In this document: piece by piece, positions 29,994 through 40,223 of the stretch | Layout: every line of letters starts with the position of its first letter | Numbering within the stretch: the stretch's first letter is position 1 | Source: Syntrophaceae bacterium | GTDB taxonomy: Bacteria; Desulfobacterota; BSN033; UBA1163 | DNA: 41,906 nucleotides | Direction: 5' to 3' | NCBI GenBank assembly: GCA_013388645.1 | Contig: JACAEV010000110.1 | Location: 1-41,906 of the forward strand | Made by a program: the position numbers and the translations under genes | Notes under the pieces: generated by a model | Told to the model about the DNA's origin: nothing | What the model saw: only the letters and a program-made list of their open reading frames with translations | Databases searched by the model: none

Positions 29994-31088
29994 ATGAAGG
30001 CGATGAAAAGAAAAATCTTAGTGGTCGATGACAATGTAGAATTTGTCGGGCTGGTCAGGCGATTGCTGGAACATAAGGATTTCCAGGTTTTCATTGCTTT
30101 GGATGGAAAAACGGCTGTCGAAAAAGTTCGTTCAGAGGAGCCGGAGATCGTGCTTCTCGATTTGAAATTACCCGATTCACCCGGTGAGGAGATATTAAAA
30201 CGCGTTAAAGAAATAAATCGGGATATTGCCGTGATCATTGTCACCGGGTTTGGGGGCGAGCAGGTGGCCGTCGATTTAATGAGAAAGGGAGCCATCGACT
30301 TTCTCTCGAAACCCATTGATAGCGACGTCCTTTATTCGGCGGTCAAGAACGCCTTCGAAATGCGAGATGCTCAAATTGAAGATCGACAGTTTGAACAGCA
30401 TCCCACGTTGGAAAAGTTTTTTCCCTTTTTAGCTCATGAGATTCGAAATCCCCTCCATGCCATTTCTGGGGCCCTTGCGATCATCCGGAGGCGGTCGGAT
30501 TTAAAAGACGAGGTCCTCGGGCAATCGATCAACATTATTAATGAAGAGGTTCACCATTTAAATGAATTTGTCCAGGAGTGTTTGAATTTTGTAAGACCTC
30601 CCGACCAGGTTCGTTTTGTCGAGGTCGGAATGAATGAAGTCATTTCGGTCGTGATGAATATCGTCTCTCACATCTATGAATCCGAATCCAAAAGAATCAA
30701 GGTCATCCAAGATTTGGATCCTCATCTTCCCAAAATTTTTGCCAATTATGAAGAGATCAAACAAGCCTTTATCAATATTGTGAAAAATGCTTTTGAGGCA
30801 ATGCCTGAGGGAGGGGTATTGTCGATCCAGACGGCTTGTAAAGCGGAATCTACCCCACTCATTGAAATCATTTTTGCAGATAACGGGATTGGCATCAAAC
30901 CAGAAAACTTAAAATCCCTATTCAATCCTTTTTTCACTACCAAACTGAGGGGCACGGGATTGGGGTTAGCCATCTGTCGAAGAATCATCGTTGAGCGGCA
31001 TCATGGGAGAATTCAGATCGAGAGCGAAGAAAAGAAGGGGACAACCATTCGAATTGAATTACCCTCAACCCGTCCGATAGGAGAGTGA
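29994..31088 (+). CDS. Receiver-histidine kinase (REC-HisKA-HATPase)
   Basis: A soluble 364-aa hybrid with the receiver at the front. The acidic pair is Asp12/Asp13, phosphoacceptor Asp56 (VLLDLKLPDSPG), Thr84, Lys106 in SKPID. The kinase H-box is FLAHEIRNPLHAI (His148), then N-box INIVKNAFEAMPEGG, G1 FADNGIGIKP and G2 GTGLGLAICRRI. With no membrane segment, it likely receives phosphate from another kinase and passes it on, or phosphorylates the NtrC-type protein next to it. The downstream gene overlaps by 4 bp (GTGA). An in-frame ATG at 30003 is an alternative start. Confidence 0.93.
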   Translation: MKAMKRKILVVDDNVEFVGLVRRLLEHKDFQVFIALDGKTAVEKVRSEEPEIVLLDLKLPDSPGEEILKRVKEINRDIAVIIVTGFGGEQVAVDLMRKGAIDFLSKPIDSDVLYSAVKNAFEMRDAQIEDRQFEQHPTLEKFFPFLAHEIRNPLHAISGALAIIRRRSDLKDEVLGQSINIINEEVHHLNEFVQECLNFVRPPDQVRFVEVGMNEVISVVMNIVSHIYESESKRIKVIQDLDPHLPKIFANYEEIKQAFINIVKNAFEAMPEGGVLSIQTACKAESTPLIEIIFADNGIGIKPENLKSLFNPFFTTKLRGTGLGLAICRRIIVERHHGRIQIESEEKKGTTIRIELPSTRPIGE

Positions 31089-32494
31089 CCATCGTGTCTC
31101 AACCCTCTATTTTAGTCGTCGATGACGAGCCCAATTCCCTTTTTGGCCTATGCCAGGTATTAGCCGATGAGGGATTTCATACGCTTTCCGCTGAAAGTGG
31201 GAAGAAGGCGTTAGACCTCCTCAAAACGAATACTGTGAATTTAATCGTTACCGATGTCAGGATGTCCGATTTTTCTGGGATGGATCTCCTTTCAGAGGTA
31301 AAGAGAGCCGATCCCCACCTTCCTGTGATCCTGATCACCGCTTATGGCTCTGTGACCATGGCGGTCGAGGCCTTAAAAAAAGGGGCCTTCTATTTTTTTG
31401 AAAAACCGATCTTTGACAAATTAGAAAGGTTTTTTATTATCATTCGCCAAGCCCTCAAAGCCCAGGAGATGGAAAAAGAGATCGACTACTTAAGAAAAGA
31501 GGTGACGGAAAGATATTCTTTTCCGAACATCATTGGGGACCACCCCAAAATGCTTGAGATTTTTGATCTCATCAGAAAAATTGCCGAAACCGATGCGACC
31601 GTTTTGATCCAAGGGGAGAGCGGGACAGGAAAAGATCTCATCGCAAAGACCATTCACTACAACAGCCTGAGGAGAAAAAAACCGTTGGTCACAGTGAATT
31701 GTGGCGCCTTGACCGAAAGTCTTCTCACCAGCGAGCTATTTGGTCATAAGAAAGGGTCTTTTACAGGGGCAATTAAAGACACCATCGGTCGTTTCCAGGC
31801 TGCCGACGGAGGGACATTGGTCTTAGATGAAATCGGTGAGATCCCCATGAATTTCCAAAAGACGCTCCTCAGGGTGATTGAAGAGAAGGAGTTCGAAAGG
31901 GTTGGAGAGAGCCAGCCGACCAAAGTTGATATTCGAATTATTTCGACGACCAACCGAAATCTTCAAGAAGAGGTCGCCAAAGGAAATTTTAGGGAAGATC
32001 TTTTTTACAGATTGAGCATTGTTCCGATGACGATCCCTCCCCTAAGAGAACGGATTTCAGATATTCCTTTATTGGTCGATTATTATCTCAAGAAATTCCA
32101 AAGGGGGAAAACTCTGATTCGAATTGAGCCCGATGTCATCGAACAATTGAAGACATTTTCTTGGTCCGGAAACGTAAGAGAATTGGCCAATATTATTCAG
32201 CAGATGACAGTATTTTGCGGAGGAAATACGATCACGATGGACGATCTCCCTTCTTCCCTTTTTATAAAAAATGGAATGGAGGTGAAAAAAGAAACGGGGA
32301 AACTCCATTTGATAAGAATGGTTTCTGAATTAGAGAAAAAGTGGATCGTCACAAAATTGAGAGAGACCAATTGGAACCAGGAAAGGGCGGCAAAACTTTT
32401 AGGCATCACTCGGAAAATGCTAACCAATCGAATCAACAAATACCACATCAAACCACAAAAAAATAGATTAGGAGGTTTTAAGAGTTGGCAATAA
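31085..32494 (+). CDS. Sigma-54-dependent response regulator (NtrC family)
   Basis: REC-AAA+-Fis activator of 469 aa. Receiver: Asp13/Asp14, phosphoacceptor Asp57 (VTDVRMSDFSG), Lys in FEKPIF. AAA+: Walker A GESGTGKD at 177-184, sigma-54 contact loop GSFTGA at 224-229 (Ser replaces Ala of GAFTGA), Walker B TLVLDEIGE, sensor I STTNRN, arginine finger region FREDLFYRL. The C-terminal Fis-type helix-turn-helix is NWNQERAAKLLGITRKMLTNRI. It is coupled to the receiver-kinase upstream. The GTG at 31085 overlaps that gene; a GTG at 31094, ten bases after AGGAG, may be the true start. The last codons carry a sigma-54 promoter for the next gene. Confidence 0.95.
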   Translation: MTIVSQPSILVVDDEPNSLFGLCQVLADEGFHTLSAESGKKALDLLKTNTVNLIVTDVRMSDFSGMDLLSEVKRADPHLPVILITAYGSVTMAVEALKKGAFYFFEKPIFDKLERFFIIIRQALKAQEMEKEIDYLRKEVTERYSFPNIIGDHPKMLEIFDLIRKIAETDATVLIQGESGTGKDLIAKTIHYNSLRRKKPLVTVNCGALTESLLTSELFGHKKGSFTGAIKDTIGRFQAADGGTLVLDEIGEIPMNFQKTLLRVIEEKEFERVGESQPTKVDIRIISTTNRNLQEEVAKGNFREDLFYRLSIVPMTIPPLRERISDIPLLVDYYLKKFQRGKTLIRIEPDVIEQLKTFSWSGNVRELANIIQQMTVFCGGNTITMDDLPSSLFIKNGMEVKKETGKLHLIRMVSELEKKWIVTKLRETNWNQERAAKLLGITRKMLTNRINKYHIKPQKNRLGGFKSWQ

Positions 32495-32500
32495 ATTTGC
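32486..32500 (+). promoter_or_regulatory. Sigma-54 promoter (-24/-12)
   Basis: TGGCAATAAATTTGC matches TGGCAC-N5-TTGC with exact GG-N10-GC spacing (GG 32487-32488, GC 32499-32500). The start should be near 32511-32512, right at the ATG at 32514. The site overlaps the stop codon of the NtrC-type gene. Confidence 0.75.
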
Positions 32501-32513
32501 ATTAAAACTGCCC

Positions 32514-33374
32514 ATGTCCACCCATTCGATTCTCCTCATTGACCCGTTTAAAAATCTCCTCAATGCTTACCGGATGATCTTAGGAGAAGAACAATATCAA
32601 GTAGATACGACGATCAATTTAAAGGATGCTTACGATTTTTTTAAGAAAAGAAAATATTCTGTCATCATCACAGAATATATCCCTCCTTATGAAACAACCG
32701 ATGATTTTATTCAATGGGTAAAAAAGGGCTCTCCAGAAGTCCATATTCTCATCGTTACGAATGCGACGATTGACGAAAAAACCTATGAAAAACTTTTTGC
32801 ACTTGGAGTGGGCGATATTATATTGAAGCCCTATTCTCCGGAAAAAATTCTTGTCCATATTAAGAGGGGTTTAAAAGAGAGAAGTTTGATTCTTAAAATA
32901 CGAGAGATGGAAAGACTTAGTCTTCTGGAGCCGATCTCAGAAGAAATTCAAGGGCTTATATTTACTCCTCCTTTTTTTAAAAAGTGCCTTCGCCAGGAGA
33001 TTAAGAAGGCTAAGCGGCATCGCCATCCTTTTTCTCTGTTATTGATCCAGATTCCGAAGACGAATGATTTAGCTGATCGGTTCGAAAGTTTTTATGCAGA
33101 CCTTTTAAAAATTTTAAGAAAGCATACGAGGGAAGAAGATTTGATAGGCAGAAGTAATGGTGAAATAGGTATTATTCTCCCAGAAACGGACCAAAATGGT
33201 TCTCAGGCCCTCATGAAAAGACTTTTAAATTTGGTTGATCAATATCCGTCTTTCAAACTTGATGATGTGATGAAGGCGTCTGTTCAAGCCCTATTTTTTC
33301 AATCATTTACGTATCCAAATCGATTTGAACTTCCTAAAAGTCTAAGCCCTGTTTTGGGCGAAATTGACAGATGA
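32514..33374 (+). CDS. Pseudo-receiver fused to a degenerate GGDEF domain
   Basis: A 286-aa protein. Residues 5-120 have the receiver fold, but the phosphoacceptor is Glu54 (VIITEYIPP), and the acidic pair is reduced to a single Asp10 (LLIDPF); Lys of ILKPYSP is kept. So it should not be phosphorylated normally, and Glu may mimic the active state. Residues 150-280 look like a GGDEF-type fold (FFKKCLRQEIKKAKRHRHPF; LRKHTREEDLIGRSNGEIGI) in which the GGDEF motif has become SNGEI, so no cyclase activity is expected. The lone protein at 37634-38095 resembles this second half. No ribosome binding site is present; the sigma-54 promoter places the mRNA start 2-3 nt upstream. Confidence 0.85.
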   Translation: MSTHSILLIDPFKNLLNAYRMILGEEQYQVDTTINLKDAYDFFKKRKYSVIITEYIPPYETTDDFIQWVKKGSPEVHILIVTNATIDEKTYEKLFALGVGDIILKPYSPEKILVHIKRGLKERSLILKIREMERLSLLEPISEEIQGLIFTPPFFKKCLRQEIKKAKRHRHPFSLLLIQIPKTNDLADRFESFYADLLKILRKHTREEDLIGRSNGEIGIILPETDQNGSQALMKRLLNLVDQYPSFKLDDVMKASVQALFFQSFTYPNRFELPKSLSPVLGEIDR

Positions 33375-33378
33375 TGAA

Positions 33379-33499
33379 CTCGTAAAAAGTCCGATTCAGC
33401 CCATTATTGTCATTCCCGTGAAAACGGGAATCCAGTGAATTCAAATACTTCTGGACTTCTGCTTTCGCAGGAGTGACGGGTGGGGAGACTTTTTACGAG
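33379..33499. repeat. MITE-like palindromic element, copy 2
   Basis: A 121-bp element just after the stop of the preceding gene, with perfect 13-bp terminal inverted repeats CTCGTAAAAAGTC (33379-33391) and GACTTTTTACGAG (33487-33499). Inside are GTCATTCCCG/CGGGAATCCAG and CTGCTTTCGCAGGAGTGAC hairpin parts shared with 4143-4283; the terminal repeats differ between copies. Confidence 0.8.
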
Positions 33500-33727
33500 A
33501 TTCTCACAGATAATATATTCCGCAATAAATCCGCTTCTTCTTTTCATTTGTTCCTCACATATACAAGGTTTTAAAAAAACCAACAAAGCATTTCTATAAT
33601 AAAAACGAAAAGTTAACTCATGCGATTATTAAATGGCCATAGGATTGAATCTACCATTTTGGATGTGTCATAAAACTGCTTGTAAATATTAAACTATTAT
33701 TTCATTATGTGCCATTTGGCGCAGCGA

Positions 33728-33745
33728 ATTTACCAAAAGGTAAAT
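33728..33745. promoter_or_regulatory. Candidate upstream activator site (perfect inverted repeat)
   Basis: ATTTACC and GGTAAAT arms separated by AAAA, framed by GTGCCA and TGGCAT. Size and distance from the sigma-54 promoter fit an enhancer for an NtrC-type dimer. Confidence 0.45.
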
Positions 33746-33837
33746 CATTTATTTAGTGGCATCTTATTGAAAAAACATATTTTTTAAAAAATTAATAAAA
33801 TCAATAAGATAAGATAAATCAATTTATGATGGTGAAA

Positions 33838-33852
33838 TGGTATAGGAATTGC
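33838..33852 (+). promoter_or_regulatory. Sigma-54 promoter (-24/-12)
   Basis: TGGTATAGGAATTGC has exact GG-N10-GC spacing (GG 33839-33840, GC 33851-33852) and a consensus TTGC. Start near 33863; leader about 43 nt to the ATG at 33906. Confidence 0.65.
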
Positions 33853-33905
33853 TATTTTTCTATCCTATCTCAATACAAATATCACCCATTTTTGAAGGTG
33901 GGCTT

Positions 33906-34364
33906 ATGGCCAAAGAGACAGTTCTCATCCTCGATAAAGAATTTCATACACAATGGACGCTTAAAACACTCTTAGAAGGAGAAAAATATATTGTTCTTGC
34001 TGTCAATAGCATTGAGCGAGCTTTACAGAATTTCCAAGAATTTGAGGTTTCCTGCCTGATCACCGAATATCGAATCGATGACCTTTGCACTCCAGACATG
34101 GTCCGGGAGCTGAAAAAGAAATTTCCAGAACTTTATGTGATGATGCTCACTCACGAGAATTTAGATGAGACTGAGTATCGAAAAGTAATGAATGCTGGGA
34201 TTGATGATTTTTTCCTGAAACCAATTTCGAGCATCAAGATTTTGGTCCATCTCAAAAAAGGATTGAGACAACGGAAGATGCTTGTTCAAAAGAAACGTTT
34301 AGAACAACAGTTGAATGCCATGAAGACGAACCGAAGTGTCGGAGGAGTTGCTGTCAGTAAGTGA
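33906..34364 (+). CDS. Stand-alone pseudo-receiver
   Basis: A 152-aa single-domain receiver-like protein with a coiled-coil tail (RQRKMLVQKKRLEQQLNAMK). As in the protein at 32514, the phosphoacceptor position is Glu54 (CLITEYRIDD) and only Asp10 of the acidic pair remains (LILDKEF). Thr (MMLTHE) and Lys (FLKPIS) are kept. The shared substitution and the similar ILVHLKKGLRQR / ILVHIKRGLKER ends show the two arose by duplication. The ATG at 33906 is preceded by GAAGGTGGG; the frame continues 19 codons upstream without a ribosome binding site. It runs from its own sigma-54 promoter and precedes a GAF-AAA+ activator by 59 bp. Confidence 0.87.
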   Translation: MAKETVLILDKEFHTQWTLKTLLEGEKYIVLAVNSIERALQNFQEFEVSCLITEYRIDDLCTPDMVRELKKKFPELYVMMLTHENLDETEYRKVMNAGIDDFFLKPISSIKILVHLKKGLRQRKMLVQKKRLEQQLNAMKTNRSVGGVAVSK

Positions 34365-34423: not shown

Positions 34424-36112
34424 ATGGAAACGGAGTTTACGCAAAAACAATTTGAAGTCACCTCTCCTGCTCTTTTTCCTCTCGAAAAAAAGGGGAGGGT
34501 ATTTACCCTTTTTCAAAAAGTTCAAGGAGCCTTGCGAAATGTCCCTGATTTTGGTGAAACCTGCAGGGCGATTTTGGATGCCGTGATTGACGAAATGGAC
34601 GCTGATAACTGCTCCTTGATGTTGAAAGACCCCGGGACAGGAGAGTTGACCATCCGCGCCGCTCGTGGGAAGAATGAAAGGGAGAGCATTTATTATTCTG
34701 ATCACTCCGGTCGCGGGAAGCGGTTCAAATTAGGAGAAGGGATTGCAGGGCGGGTTCTTAAAGAGGGGCAGGCCGTCATGGTAAATGACGTCGATAAGGA
34801 ACCCCATTTTGTGAAGGTGGCAGGGCTAAACAATGGAGTCAATTCTTTGATCTGTTTTCCAGTTCGCGAAAAAGACCAGGTGGTGGGAGTTTTCAACCTC
34901 AGTCATTCCAAAAGGGGTGCTTTTAATGAGGAAGATAAATTAGCTCTGGCTTATATTTCCAACCAGATGGGGGCGGCACTGACCTCAGCACGTTTCTTTT
35001 TAGAAATCAAAGAGATGAATCGACTGGTGAGAAATTCCACCAAATCTTTTTCTAAAGAAAAAATTGTTCCACTCTTTCCTCGTTCTGCTTCCACGTTTGT
35101 TGAAGTCGGTGAGATGAGAGGAAAGGATGGGATCTTTCTTTATGCCAATGAGAAAATGCGTCAGGTTAAAGAAATTATTGATCAGGTGGCCAATACCGAT
35201 GTCACCGTCCTCATCCAGGGAGAAAGTGGTGTGGGAAAAGAGGTAGTCGCCCGCTCGATTCATCTCAATTCTTTTCGTCGCGAGAAGCCATTTGTCAAAG
35301 TAAATTGCGCTGCTTTGCCTCAGGAGCTTTTGGAGAGTGAGCTGTTTGGCTACGAAAAAGGGGCCTTCACAGGGGCTTATCGTCAGAAACCGGGGAAGTT
35401 TGAATTGGCCAATGGGGGGACGATTTTCTTAGATGAGATTTCAGAGATGAGCCTTTCCCTTCAAGGTAAACTTCTTCAAGTCCTTCAAGATAAGGAATTT
35501 TCAAGATTGGGGGGAAAAAGGGATATCCAGGTGGACGTCCGGGTCTTAATTGCAACCAATAAGAAAATAGAGGAAGGTGTGAAGAACGGGCAATTCCGAG
35601 AAGACCTATACTATCGACTGAATGTGGTCAATATCACGATTCCCCCTTTAAGGGAGAGAAAAGAAGAGATTCCCATCTTTATTGAATATTTTTTAGATAA
35701 GTTTAGTAAAAAATACCAGAAACAGATCCATCCAATTTCATATAAAATGATGAAGGCTTTTTCTCAACATCATTGGTCTGGGAATGTTCGAGAATTGGAA
35801 AATGTCATCCAACGATTTGTCGTGCTGGGAGATGAAGACCTGATTATTGAGGAATTAGGGTCCGGTATCAAGCCGACGATTAGTCAAGAAAAGAAAGGTA
35901 CGGCTGAACAAATAAAAACCTGGCCGTCGTTGAAAAAAGTCCATCAGGAGGCTTCAATCAGGGCGGAATCAGAGATGATCCTCAAGGCATTAGAAATAAC
36001 CAATTGGAATCGGAAAAAGGCAGCTCAAAAATTAAACGTGAGCTACAAAACCCTCCTCAATAAAATTAAGGAATTTGGTCTCGATCATCGATTTGTTCAC
36101 CCCAGGTTGTGA
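34424..36112 (+). CDS. GAF-AAA+-Fis sigma-54 activator (NifA-like layout)
   Basis: A 562-aa enhancer-binding protein. The GAF sensory domain is at about residues 40-200 (FGETCRAILDAVIDEMDADN; LICFPVREKDQVVGVFNLSH). The AAA+ domain has Walker A GESGVGKE (266-273), GAFTGA (313-318), Walker B TIFLDEISE, sensor I IATNKK and the R-finger region FREDLYYRL; all catalytic parts are intact. The C-terminal helix-turn-helix is NWNRKKAAQKLNVSYKTLLNKI. GGAG lies five bases before the ATG. It is likely co-transcribed with the pseudo-receiver gene upstream, which might control it. The ligand of the GAF domain cannot be told. Confidence 0.95.
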   Translation: METEFTQKQFEVTSPALFPLEKKGRVFTLFQKVQGALRNVPDFGETCRAILDAVIDEMDADNCSLMLKDPGTGELTIRAARGKNERESIYYSDHSGRGKRFKLGEGIAGRVLKEGQAVMVNDVDKEPHFVKVAGLNNGVNSLICFPVREKDQVVGVFNLSHSKRGAFNEEDKLALAYISNQMGAALTSARFFLEIKEMNRLVRNSTKSFSKEKIVPLFPRSASTFVEVGEMRGKDGIFLYANEKMRQVKEIIDQVANTDVTVLIQGESGVGKEVVARSIHLNSFRREKPFVKVNCAALPQELLESELFGYEKGAFTGAYRQKPGKFELANGGTIFLDEISEMSLSLQGKLLQVLQDKEFSRLGGKRDIQVDVRVLIATNKKIEEGVKNGQFREDLYYRLNVVNITIPPLRERKEEIPIFIEYFLDKFSKKYQKQIHPISYKMMKAFSQHHWSGNVRELENVIQRFVVLGDEDLIIEELGSGIKPTISQEKKGTAEQIKTWPSLKKVHQEASIRAESEMILKALEITNWNRKKAAQKLNVSYKTLLNKIKEFGLDHRFVHPRL

Positions 36113-36207: not shown

Positions 36208-36514
36208 AATTTGTATGATTCGCTGGGGGCGATTAAATAATGAAAAATTCAAAATAAGTTAACGTAAAAAGAAAGCAATGCATTTCTACTTTGAGAAAAG
36301 ATTTTTATTATTTTTGAACATAGTTGGAATAAGAGAAATCAAATTCAATTTTTTTCTAAAAAAGAAAATGTGGAAGTCCTTTACCACTTTTTTCCCTCCT
36401 CGTTCCACTTTTTCAATTCCTTTTTGAAGAGAGATGAGGACTCTTTTCTATGAGAGTAAGAGAATATAATTCAATTTCAAGAGGTTATTTAAGAGTAGTC
36501 TATGGCATCGTATT

Positions 36515-36529
36515 TGGCATATAGATTGC
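36515..36529 (+). promoter_or_regulatory. Sigma-54 promoter (-24/-12)
   Basis: TGGCATATAGATTGC gives exact GG-N10-GC spacing (GG 36516-36517, GC 36528-36529). The start should be near 36540, about 5 nt before the ATG at 36546. Confidence 0.75.
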
Positions 36530-36545
36530 TCTTAATATAAAACCC

Positions 36546-37568
36546 ATGAAAGAAATTTATCAGCTTATTTTTTCCAATAGTTCTCAAATGAGTAGAATCA
36601 AAACGGTCATTGATGAGATCGCCAAGACGGATATTACTGTTCTGATAAAAGGGGAGACTGGGACAGGGAAAGAATTGCTGGCTCAGGTGATCCACTCCCA
36701 TTCCCCTCGAAAGGATAAACCTTTCGTAAAAGTAAATTGTGCGGCCATTCCAAAAGGTCTCCTCGAAAGCGAACTGTTTGGGTTTGAAAAGGGAGCCTTC
36801 ACAGGGGCTTATATCAAGAAACCCGGGAAATTCGAATTAGCCAATCATGGGACGATCTTATTAAATGATATCGGGGAAATAGACATTTCTGTTCAGGCCA
36901 AACTCCTCGATATTCTCCAGGATGGGGTGTTTTCCCGTTTAGGGGGGGATGGAGAGGTGATGGTCAACACCCGTGTGATCACCACCACCAAAGACCATTT
37001 AGAGAAATCGGTAATGGAGGGCCAATTCCGGGAGGATCTATTTTTCAGGGTCAACGTCATGAACATCACCCTTCCCCCTTTGCGAGAGAGAAAAGATCAG
37101 ATCCTTCCTCTTTCCCAATATTATTTTGATTTCTATAAAGAGAAGTTTGGAAAAGCAATTCCTCCATTTTCGTCAAAAGCGATTCACACCTTTCAAGAGT
37201 ATCCCTGGCCTGGGAATATTCGGGAATTAGAAAATATGATTAAGCGAATAGTCCTGTTCGGCGAGGAGGATCTCATTCTGGAGGATCTCATGAGTCGGAG
37301 TAAGGACAATGGAAAAAGTCCAGAAGGACTTAAAAATGGTTCGTCAAACCCCATGAAAGGAGAAGAGTATTTTAACTTAAAGGATGCAGGGAAAAGAGCG
37401 GCTGAGGAAGCAGAAAAAGAGATCATTCTAAACATATTACAAGAAACCCATTGGAACCGAAAGAAGGCAGCCCAATTGCTTCACGTAAGTTACAAGGCTC
37501 TTCTCAATAAGATTCAAAAATATCATTTAGATGGCACGAAAGATGACGTTGAATGGAAAAGAAATTAG
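36546..37568 (+). CDS. AAA+-Fis protein of the sigma-54 activator family with altered Walker B
   Basis: A 340-aa PspF-like protein with no sensory domain; the AAA+ fold begins at once. Walker A GETGTGKE (36-43) and the sigma-54 loop GAFTGA (83-88) are intact. Walker B, normally LDE, reads LLNDIGE: Asn107-Asp108. The family's GG before it is HG, and sensor I reads TTTKD rather than ATN(R). The R-finger region FREDLFFRV, the GNIRELENM sensor II and the C-terminal helix-turn-helix NWNRKKAAQLLHVSYKALLNKI are kept. ATP hydrolysis may be weak or absent, so it may dampen or steer its active paralogue at 34424, with which it shares most motifs. The gene has its own sigma-54 promoter and no Shine-Dalgarno sequence. 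Confidence 0.9.
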   Translation: MKEIYQLIFSNSSQMSRIKTVIDEIAKTDITVLIKGETGTGKELLAQVIHSHSPRKDKPFVKVNCAAIPKGLLESELFGFEKGAFTGAYIKKPGKFELANHGTILLNDIGEIDISVQAKLLDILQDGVFSRLGGDGEVMVNTRVITTTKDHLEKSVMEGQFREDLFFRVNVMNITLPPLRERKDQILPLSQYYFDFYKEKFGKAIPPFSSKAIHTFQEYPWPGNIRELENMIKRIVLFGEEDLILEDLMSRSKDNGKSPEGLKNGSSNPMKGEEYFNLKDAGKRAAEEAEKEIILNILQETHWNRKKAAQLLHVSYKALLNKIQKYHLDGTKDDVEWKRN

Positions 37569-37633: not shown

Positions 37634-38095
37634 GTGGAAAAATTAGAGGGCAAATTCGCGGAGAGCGTGGAGCTGGGATCGGGGAGGGTGGTGAATCGAG
37701 ATTTATTTCTTTTTCTTTTGGACCTTGAAGTGAAACGGTCTCGACGTTACCAAAATTTCCTATGTCTGATGTTTTTCAACATTCAACCATTTTCTAAGAA
37801 TGGTAATGGGGGAGGGTTACAGAACTGCTACGACACATTAACGAAGATTTTATTGGAGGAGATGCGCGAAAGTGACATCATCGGTACTCTTGAATTAAAC
37901 AAACTCGTTGTTCTTCTCCCTTATGCTGATGCCAAAGCAGGAGCCTATGTCCAATCCCGTTTTGAAGATGTAATGAAATATTATGATTTTAAAAGTAAAG
38001 GGTTTGAAATCAAAATTCATCAGGTCTGTTTTCCTGTTCATGGTACCGATACGATGGATCTCATTCGAAAAGCCTTAGAGGCGGAAACAACATAA
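37634..38095 (+). CDS. Stand-alone degenerate GGDEF-type protein
   Basis: A 153-aa protein. FLLDLEVKRSRRYQNFLCLMFFNI, LLEEMRESDIIGTLELNKLVVLLP and ADAKAGAYVQSRFEDVM follow the helix-strand order of GGDEF domains, with the ESDIIGR-like turn. The GGDEF motif itself is replaced by LELNK, so it should not make c-di-GMP. It resembles the C-terminal half of the 32514 protein. The start is GTG at 37634 after GGGGGAG. It lies between the sigma-54 family protein and the EPS export gene. A structural or sensory role in EPS control is inference from position. Confidence 0.75.
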   Translation: MEKLEGKFAESVELGSGRVVNRDLFLFLLDLEVKRSRRYQNFLCLMFFNIQPFSKNGNGGGLQNCYDTLTKILLEEMRESDIIGTLELNKLVVLLPYADAKAGAYVQSRFEDVMKYYDFKSKGFEIKIHQVCFPVHGTDTMDLIRKALEAETT

Positions 38096-38155: not shown

Positions 38156-38773
38156 ATGAAAAAAACAGTTTACATCGGGTTATTTGGGTTACTGGTCTTT
38201 TTAATTTTTGCACCAATTGTTTTTTCACAAGCTGACAAGGAGGTCATGGTGAAAAAGCAGGCCCAGGCAGAAGTCCCTGCCGATAGTGACCAATATATTA
38301 TTGGAGCGGAGGATGTCCTTTATATCCATGTGTGGAGAGAGGATGCCTTATCGAGAACGGTCCCTGTGAGGATGGATGGGAATATCTCTCTTCCGATCAT
38401 TCAAGAAATTAAAGCCGCGGGGCTGACTCCACTTCAATTAAAAGAAGCATTAACCCTGAAATTAAAAGAATTTATTGAGACCCCCACGGTTTCCGTCACC
38501 GTGATGGAGGCCAATAGCTTCAAGGTTTTTGTTACAGGCCAGGTCAGAACTCCAGGGGTTTACCGACTGCGAAGTGAAACGACGGTGCTTCAAATCATCC
38601 CGATGGCAGGTGGGTTTACGGATTGGGCGAATCAAAAGAAGATCTTGATCCTCAGGAAAGAGAACGGGAAGGAAAAACGAATCATTGTCAATTATAAAAA
38701 AATTATGCAAGGGGGCGATCCGGGTTCCAATATCGTTCTTAAAGCTGGCGATACCATTATTGTTCCGGATTAA
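38156..38773 (+). CDS. Polysaccharide export protein, Wza/EpsE type
   Basis: A 205-aa exported protein with a signal peptide (LFGLLVFLIFAPIVFSQA) but no lipobox cysteine. The polysaccharide export domain begins YIIGAEDVLYIHVWREDALS and contains RMDGNISLPIIQEIKAAGLT. One SLBB domain follows (FKVFVTGQVRTPGVYRLRS to VVPD end). Such proteins form the outer-membrane or periplasmic export channel with a Wzz/GumC-type partner, which follows two genes downstream. AGGGG precedes the ATG with seven-base spacing. The short length (one SLBB repeat) is as in EpsE-type proteins of exosortase-linked EPS clusters. Confidence 0.93.
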   Translation: MKKTVYIGLFGLLVFLIFAPIVFSQADKEVMVKKQAQAEVPADSDQYIIGAEDVLYIHVWREDALSRTVPVRMDGNISLPIIQEIKAAGLTPLQLKEALTLKLKEFIETPTVSVTVMEANSFKVFVTGQVRTPGVYRLRSETTVLQIIPMAGGFTDWANQKKILILRKENGKEKRIIVNYKKIMQGGDPGSNIVLKAGDTIIVPD

Positions 38774-38855: not shown

Positions 38856-40223
38856 ATGAAAAAAACAAAAAGAATTGCCTGGATGGGTTGTCTAACAGCG
38901 TTGCTTCTTATGTTATTACCCACTATGGTCCACGCTTGGGCAGAAGATATTTTCTCTCATTTTCAGGTCTATATTACTGCCGAGGAGGAATATAACAGCA
39001 ATCTCGACCTGACATCGAACAGACTAAAAAGAAGCGACTATATTACTACGGTCTCTCCCGGATTAAGATTTTCCACCTCACCAAAGTCTCCGACAACCGG
39101 TGAATTTAGAAGAGAACCCACAGCCGAAGATAGGTTTGGAGTGGATTTGGACGTTCGGGCAGGATTCGTCTTTTATGCCAAAGAACACGATGACAATTAT
39201 ATCAGTCTCAATGGGACGCTCAATGCCTGGTATGCCTTCACCCGGAATTTCACTTTCCGGGTCAGGGATTATCTGGTTCGGTCCGATGAGGTAAGGGAAC
39301 AAGATTATTCAGTGACTGCCATCCCTGGTCAAAGTCTCCTTTCGCGAATGAGCATCAGGGAGCCTTATTACCGGAATGTATTTGAACCTTCTCTCGAATA
39401 TCGTTTCGGAAGAGACAACGTTCTTACGCTCAATTACAGGAATAACATCTATGAAATCAGTAGCCGCACAGCCGAGGATAGCATGGAAAATTATGTCAAT
39501 CCAAGGCTCACTTATTGGTTCAATGTTAAGCATGGAATCTATCTGGAGTATGGTTTCACTCTTGCAGATTTTGAAAATTCTCGAGATTGGGTAGGCCACC
39601 TGGGAACAGCACGTTACATGTATCGGTTTAATCCGAGAACATCCGTTTTTGTAGAATATACTCAATTATGGCGTAATTTTGATAAGCCTTCCTTCGGTGA
39701 AAACACTGCATTGGATTACGTGGTGTACAGGCCAAGCATCGGCATTGAACATGCCTTTAGCCCCACCCTCAGCGCAAGGGGTCAATTTGGATATTTTTGG
39801 CAGGATCCTAATGGGGGCACCACCACCGATTCGTTCTACTACGATGTGAGCCTTACAAAACGGGCTGGGAAAACGACTTATACCCTCTCCTCTCAAGGAG
39901 GATACACGGAGGATTATTTTACCTCAGAGAATCTTGGTTTTACGAAATATTACCGGGTCGTCGGGAGAGTGACTCATCAACTTCTGCAAAGGATGAATGT
40001 CGGCCTTTTTGGAAGCTATGAATGGGCCAAATACCCTGGAACCGTGATAGACGATAAAAAACCAAAAGATCAGATTTGGGCGGTAGGATGCAACGCCTCT
40101 TATCAGATCCTGAGGTGGCTGACTATTTCATTGGATGGTTCTCACCGGGAGAACCGTTCAAACATTGAAGATAGAGACTATAGCGAATACCGCGGAATAT
40201 TGCGGATCACGGCTACTTATTAA
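38856..40223 (+). CDS. Outer-membrane beta-barrel protein of the EPS cluster
   Basis: A 455-aa protein with signal peptide MKKTKRIAWMGCLTALLLML...VHAWA. The mature part has alternating polar/aromatic strands: SDYITTVSPGLRFSTSP, VDLDVRAGFVFYAKE, VLTLNYRNNIYEIS, ASYQILRWLTISLDGSHREN. It ends in an aromatic residue (RITATY), as outer-membrane barrels do. Similar barrels lie beside wza- and wzz-like genes in exosortase/PEP-CTERM-type EPS clusters (EpsL or TIGR03016-like group). No enzymatic motif is seen. GGGGTG precedes the ATG. A role in EPS passage or surface attachment is inference. Confidence 0.87.
   Translation: MKKTKRIAWMGCLTALLLMLLPTMVHAWAEDIFSHFQVYITAEEEYNSNLDLTSNRLKRSDYITTVSPGLRFSTSPKSPTTGEFRREPTAEDRFGVDLDVRAGFVFYAKEHDDNYISLNGTLNAWYAFTRNFTFRVRDYLVRSDEVREQDYSVTAIPGQSLLSRMSIREPYYRNVFEPSLEYRFGRDNVLTLNYRNNIYEISSRTAEDSMENYVNPRLTYWFNVKHGIYLEYGFTLADFENSRDWVGHLGTARYMYRFNPRTSVFVEYTQLWRNFDKPSFGENTALDYVVYRPSIGIEHAFSPTLSARGQFGYFWQDPNGGTTTDSFYYDVSLTKRAGKTTYTLSSQGGYTEDYFTSENLGFTKYYRVVGRVTHQLLQRMNVGLFGSYEWAKYPGTVIDDKKPKDQIWAVGCNASYQILRWLTISLDGSHRENRSNIEDRDYSEYRGILRITATY

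Follow-up and report, generated by a model that had tools for sequence, protein, structure and literature searches.

Two neighbouring genes of a sigma54 regulatory locus encode paralogous receiver proteins in which the phosphoacceptor aspartate has been replaced by the same glutamate, Glu54. The window, i.e. the whole stretch of 41,906 nucleotides that was analysed, corresponds to contig C208 in a draft genome of 3.95 Mb and 250 contigs, the closest named relatives of which are metagenome assemblies of Syntrophaceae; the genes and candidate regulatory sites described for it here lie on its + strand. Protein A (32514..33374, 286 aa) consists of a pseudo-receiver and a degenerate GGDEF domain, as judged from its translation, Pfam matches, an alignment of homologues and a structural model; protein B (33906..34364, 152 aa), as judged from its translation, Pfam and a model, is a lone pseudo-receiver in which a long last helix (residues 109-146) is predicted. 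The preferred reading, to which a probability of about 0.5 is assigned, is that A and B are non-phosphorylated receivers held in an on-like conformation by Glu54, that they act in a sigma54 cascade and are dosed by their own synthesis, and that A probably has an additional input from c-di-GMP.

Both proteins match the Pfam receiver family Response_reg (PF00072; A with 45.6 bits, B with 52.0 bits, cut-off 30.2), and A also matches GGDEF (34.7 bits, cut-off 23.8). The receiver motifs are SILLIDPF...VIITEYIP...LIVTNA...ILKPY in A and TVLILDKE...CLITEYRI...MMLTHE...FLKPI in B. The first-pass annotation had placed Glu54 within an ITEY motif of each protein, and the translations bear this out, the glutamate being encoded by GAA at 32673..32675 in A and by GAA at 34065..34067 in B. 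Instead of the quintet Asp-Asp/Asp/Thr/Lys of ordinary response regulators, A has Asp-Pro/Glu/Thr/Lys and B has Asp-Lys/Glu/Thr/Lys; that is, Asp10, Glu54, Thr82 and Lys105 are present in both proteins of the window, and B additionally has Glu12. Relative to ordinary receivers, A and B also carry a one-residue insertion after strand 4. Among 80 receiver segments of the same genome, the phosphoacceptor position is occupied by Asp in 72 and by Glu in four (A, B and two partial matches), and the occurrence of Glu54 in both A and B is not due to chance. Each protein matches the receiver family, has the receiver fold and lacks Asp at the phosphoacceptor position, and both are accordingly aspartate-less receivers (pseudo-receivers).

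The predicted structures (mean pLDDT 82 for A and 89 for B, falling below 50 in a linker of A at about residues 140-147) show the receiver fold in both proteins. Among solved chains, the HupR D55E receiver comes closest to the model of B (TM-score 0.81 by query length), a likeness to a Glu mutant that is not equivalent to an on state, and the REC-GGDEF proteins DgcR and WspR come closest to the model of A. These AlphaFold models do not decide between an on and an off state of A or B.

Glu54 is ancient in this family. Among the A-type homologues, Glu54 and Asp10 (codon 32541..32543 of the window) are each invariant in 14/14 genomes and Lys105 is present in 13/14, with Glu54 holding down to approximately 30% identity; the B of the window likewise has all three residues. 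Among 12 B-type sequences, a count that takes two fragments from genome G159 as one sequence, position 54 is Glu in nine and Asp in three (G009, G010 and G015), the latter forming one subclade. In B, Glu54 is encoded by both GAA and GAG, so its conservation is not merely a matter of recency. A glutamate fixed in all homologues, which the first-pass annotation proposed to look for by alignment, was thus found for A and is ruled out for B. The same annotation had held that homologues with Asp at this position and normal phosphorylation would speak against it; Asp54 does exist in the three B proteins, yet these carry Asn in place of Asp10 and Val or Ala in place of Thr, and because of these replacements they look incapable of normal phosphorylation and do not qualify as ordinary receivers either.

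When a receiver tree was built with column 54 left out, A and B formed one clade (SH-aLRT 98) separate from 97 other receivers, and therefore one Asp-to-Glu substitution was inherited by both. Two independent Asp-to-Glu events are ruled out by this result, and the same change in two copies does not amount to independent evidence of selection, as the earlier argument had it. The simplest account of the sequences would be a single Asp-to-Glu change before the duplication, followed by one return to Asp. The order of events at the rest of the site may also be read from surviving members: the A proteins of G021 and G022 have an intact Asp-Glu pair alongside Glu54, Thr and Lys, an N-terminal fragment of B from G159 combines Asp-Asp with Glu, and another contig of G159 carries the C-terminal part of a closely similar B copy, with Glu, Thr and Lys. 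Since members with an intact acidic pair already have Glu, Glu came first and the second acidic residue decayed later, to Pro in A and mostly to Lys or Gln in B. The first-pass statement that only Asp10 of the acidic pair is kept is correct for the window (Pro11 in A, Lys11 in B), although it describes a later state that was reached separately in A (Pro) and in B (Lys, Gln or Glu). The two partial B sequences of G159 (L122 8726-8953 and L123 2154-2468) differ at several residues, and hence this genome has either two B copies or mixed strains.

Under the preferred reading, the ancestral Asp-to-Glu change would have occurred while the rest of the site was intact, so that Glu54 could pair with Lys105 and Asp10 and hold the on-like conformation; the second acidic residue would then have been free to decay because no Mg2+ has to be bound. 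Two observations weigh against parts of this reading: Thr82, which belongs to the usual on-state network, is replaced by Ala in A of G006 and G008 and in B of G140, and the combination of Asp54 with Asn10 in one B subclade argues against Glu54 being indispensable. In characterised aspartate-less receivers, Glu is sometimes important but often not sufficient, and a single replacement often changes little (PMC4395418, PMC12632262). It is less likely, though well possible, that A and B are instead phosphorylation-dead interaction modules in which Glu54 only preserves a salt-bridge network and the fold, such that their surfaces matter and not an on state. Their residue pattern is typical of domains of this kind (Maule et al., PMC4395418), and both the losses of Thr82 and the tolerance of Asp54 with Asn10 in B would suit a scaffold of this kind; however, the invariance of Glu54 in A across such divergent homologues and its origin before the decay of the site favour Glu itself as the functional change. 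The proposal of the first-pass annotation that selection has maintained a permanently active or non-phosphorylated signalling surface keeps the backing of an ancient glutamate that arose in an intact site, is invariant in A and is accompanied by near-invariant Asp10 and Lys105, and loses that of a glutamate fixed in B.

That A and B are still phosphorylated, on Glu54 or on another residue, would be very surprising. Some members do keep Asp-Glu or Asp-Asp together with Thr and Lys beside Glu54, and one subclade of B has the aspartate itself, but position 11 is Pro or Lys in the proteins of the window, from which it follows that their Mg2+ site is gone, and the subclade with Asp54 is without Asp10 and Thr.

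The genes for A and B are part of a conserved block. Its first gene (29994..31088; Pfam) encodes a receiver-histidine kinase (REC-HisKA-HATPase) with canonical receiver residues, which is likely to be the partner kinase of the NtrC-type response regulator encoded next (31085..32494; REC-sigma54 AAA+-Fis HTH; Pfam, NCBIfam and conserved order), whose receiver has the canonical Asp-Asp/Asp/Thr/Lys residues. Directly downstream of B is its conserved neighbour, a GAF-sigma54 AAA+-HTH activator (34424..36112; Pfam), followed by a second sigma54 AAA+-HTH activator without a sensory domain (36546..37568; Pfam and conserved order) and a stand-alone degenerate GGDEF protein (37634..38095; Pfam and alignment) that has kept RxxD (as RESD) and lost GGDEF. 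The block continues with a Wza-like polysaccharide export lipoprotein (38156..38773; Pfam), which is close to the XrtA/PEP-CTERM type while falling under the cut-off of that model (TIGR03027, 148.8 bits, cut-off 180), and with an outer-membrane beta-barrel protein of polysaccharide loci (38856..40223; Pfam and a weak match to TIGR03016). The contig end after the barrel gene reads by eye as a chain-length protein.

The order kinase, NtrC-type regulator, A, B, GAF activator, second activator, GGDEF-like protein, Wza-like protein and outer-membrane protein is conserved among relatives from within the family and class of this genome, the exceptions being contig ends, G012, which is without B, and G009 and G015, in which the GGDEF-like gene was not detected. 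It recurs, as far as the contigs reach, in G140 and G159, which belong to other families; a search for further homologues around these two found only the same two genomes, and each of them has 8-9% contamination, making either transfer or a mixed bin possible. The kinase, the NtrC-type regulator, the GAF activator, the second activator and the GGDEF-like protein are all present in G018 and A and B are missing, which identifies A and B as an added module of the locus. The second sigma54 activator of G018 (L176 2442-3944) has an extra N-terminal extension of about 160 residues that by eye resembles a very degenerate receiver; it could be a partner domain that was once fused to its activator.

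It is in this setting that a role as a decoy or sink has to be weighed, in which A and B would bind the kinase of the locus, or form heterodimers with its NtrC-type regulator, without accepting phosphate and would thereby tune the phosphorelay. That A and B immediately follow the genes for the kinase and the NtrC-type regulator wherever the region is complete is suggestive of such a role, and heterodimers of CmrR and CmrT have been reported (PMC12548384), but B has the closer link to the GAF activator, through its own promoter and an adjacent gene, and the decoy role is judged unlikely. According to the preferred reading, A and B would act, in one direction or the other, on the sigma54 activators of the locus through protein contacts made by the last helix and its neighbourhood, and the last helix of B, which is predicted to run on, would be long and possibly dimerising.

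Candidate sigma54 promoters suggest how these proteins may be dosed. A -24/-12 candidate, TGGTATAGGAATTGCT (33838..33853), precedes B at a conserved site; among the relatives, a site of this kind (TGGTAT-N5-ATTGCT) scoring at least 13 occurs within 200 bp before B in 9/11 genomes, compared with 0.1 expected from shuffling. A second candidate, TGGCATATAGATTGCT (36515..36530), precedes the second activator, where a sigma54 site is found in 8/10 genomes (shuffle expectation 0.09), and a third, TGGCAATAAATTTGCA (32486..32501), lies 12 bp before A, with its first bases still within the NtrC gene, a strong site before A being present in 4/14 genomes (shuffle expectation 0.28). No sigma54 sites were found before the kinase, NtrC, Wza or outer-membrane protein genes across the relatives. 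Over the whole window there are 10 sigma54-like sites against 12.3 expected, no excess above chance, so the candidate promoters are credible only by virtue of their positions relative to genes and their conservation in relatives.

Upstream of two of these promoters are candidate activator sites. The one before the promoter of B is a dyad, CCATTTGG...CCAAAAGG (33712..33740), which forms an aligned block in most relatives (as CCWTTTGG...CCAAAAGG). The one before the promoter of the second activator is a different element, the palindrome GTGGAAGTCCTTTACCAC (36370..36387), and the pattern GTGG-N10-CCAC occurs in this intergenic region in 6/10 genomes, compared with a shuffle expectation of 0.02. 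Because the two upstream sites differ, they suggest that two different sigma54 activators may act in sequence, the assignment of activators to sites being tentative. As a regulon marker GTGG-N10-CCAC was rejected: there are few copies elsewhere in the genome, not above the control, and the one that was inspected (C17) is inside a gene region unrelated to polysaccharide. The region between A and B also contains an element at 33412-33480 with ATTCCCGTGAAAACGGGAATCCAG; the corresponding intergenic regions of G015 and G140 contain similar pieces (ATTCCCGCTTTCGCGGGAAT and ACTCCGGTGAAAACCGGAGT), as dispersed repeats might leave.

Taken with the preferred reading, these sites would mean that the input of A and B is their amount and not phosphate: B, along with the GAF activator, would be made from sigma54 promoters, as would A in several genomes, in a cascade that may end in the exopolysaccharide genes.

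A second input is suggested for A by its GGDEF part. The catalytic residues are gone in comparison with intact relatives, NG-EI replacing GGDEF and the metal Asp and the GHxxGD region being lost, and the c-di-GMP I-site motif RxxD (REED, residues 206-209, 33129..33140), identified by alignment with intact GGDEF proteins, is retained in register before the GGDEF turn, with Arg206 and Asp209 invariant in 14/14 homologues of A. Likewise, the lone GGDEF-like protein of the locus has RxxD in 10/10 homologues and has lost the catalytic motif. All eight intact GGDEF relatives that served as controls have RxxD as well, and its retention may for this reason be partly structural. From the pattern of retained and lost residues, A probably reads c-di-GMP at the I-site of a catalytically dead GGDEF domain, and the lone GGDEF-like protein may be a second receptor for c-di-GMP in the locus.

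That A and B are decaying leftovers of a duplicated response regulator is suggested chiefly by B in one part of the family. In the subclade with Asp54, dN/dS is 0.44-0.65 for B, on only 17-19 changed codons, versus 0.06-0.20 for A's receiver in those genomes, and in the related G012, B is absent and A is directly followed by the GAF activator. The raised dN/dS and the absence from G012 are suggestive, and only suggestive, of B mattering less in that branch; together with the lack of both genes from the locus of G018, they speak for a history of decay. However, within the genus of the window, NG86 on start-trimmed genes gives, where computable, dN/dS values of 0.09-0.15 (A) and 0.05-0.11 (B), which are rough because synonymous changes have almost reached saturation; both genes are under purifying selection there and are found again in other families, so that decay is a highly unlikely explanation. 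The A of G012 (L041 162-1169) has an in-frame insertion of about 50 residues in its GGDEF-like part, containing NNTLAVGPEPVEGQ.

A more specific form of the preferred reading is doubtful: that the pair forms a relay whose phosphate input has been replaced twice over, that one ancestral Glu has locked both receivers on-like, that A is an adaptor through which c-di-GMP is read, and that B is a detached NtrC-type regulatory domain controlling in trans the sigma54 activators that lack a receiver, with each of the two dosed by its own sigma54 promoter.

Comparison with known systems places A and B among proteins of a familiar kind. In the survey of aspartate-less receivers by Maule et al., Glu is the commonest replacement (26%), the first acidic residue is kept in 65% and the second in only 29%, and the Lys site is basic in 70% (PMC4395418). 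A and B agree with these receivers in their fold, in having Glu at the phosphosite (the largest class), in keeping the first acidic residue and Lys, and in having lost the second acidic residue (PMC4395418, PMC12632262); they differ in being side-by-side paralogues whose single common Asp-to-Glu event can be traced and of which intermediates still exist. The family offers an ordered series, from Glu with an intact acidic pair, to Glu with the pair lost, to a subclade that is back to Asp and has lost Asp10. Comparing members of this series would show which change matters and when, making it a natural experiment on the origin of pseudo-receivers. According to a 2025 review, it is unknown how pseudo-receivers are switched on and off (PMC12632262), and the neighbouring promoters and I-site motifs suggest where the signal may now enter the cascade of A and B.

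Three other comparisons concern the setting of A and B. VemR of Xanthomonas is a lone receiver whose operon also encodes sigma54 and a sigma54 activator; it affects polysaccharide, and mutations of its phosphosites have no effect on this (PMC6637908). B resembles it in consisting of a receiver alone, in having sigma54 activators encoded next to it and in its tie to polysaccharide, but unlike B, VemR keeps putative phosphorylation sites, and the likeness is one of description that does not imply orthology. PopA of Caulobacter and ActA and SgmT of Myxococcus are c-di-GMP receptors with degenerate GGDEF domains and intact I-sites (PMC12564702, PMC3509222). In ActA, as in A, a receiver precedes a GGDEF domain whose active site is dead and whose RxxD is kept; A differs from these proteins in that its receiver is aspartate-less and its binding of c-di-GMP is only predicted. 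NtrC-like polysaccharide regulators such as EpsI/Nla24 of Myxococcus are activators that bind c-di-GMP themselves (PMC4877007). The locus described here likewise has sigma54-type activators in a polysaccharide context with a putative c-di-GMP input, whereas its I-sites are in separate proteins encoded beside the activators.

The best parallel is CmrT of the CmrRST system of Clostridioides difficile, in which Glu53 forms a network with Asp9 and Lys102, the DD motif is broken and the protein is proposed to be constitutively active (PMC12548384). CmrT is made under the control of its partner CmrR, and a single replacement of Glu53 had little effect while Asp9 and Lys102 mattered more (PMC12548384). 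A and B share with CmrT the Glu phosphosite, the altered DD motif, the normal kinase and regulator encoded beside them and, by the preferred reading, control via expression; in contrast, CmrT is a DNA-binding regulator of the OmpR type, and A and B, which have no DNA-binding domain, would act in a sigma54 cascade. The kind of protein is already known from aspartate-less receivers and especially from CmrT, and the system in which A and B are found adds a new member to it.
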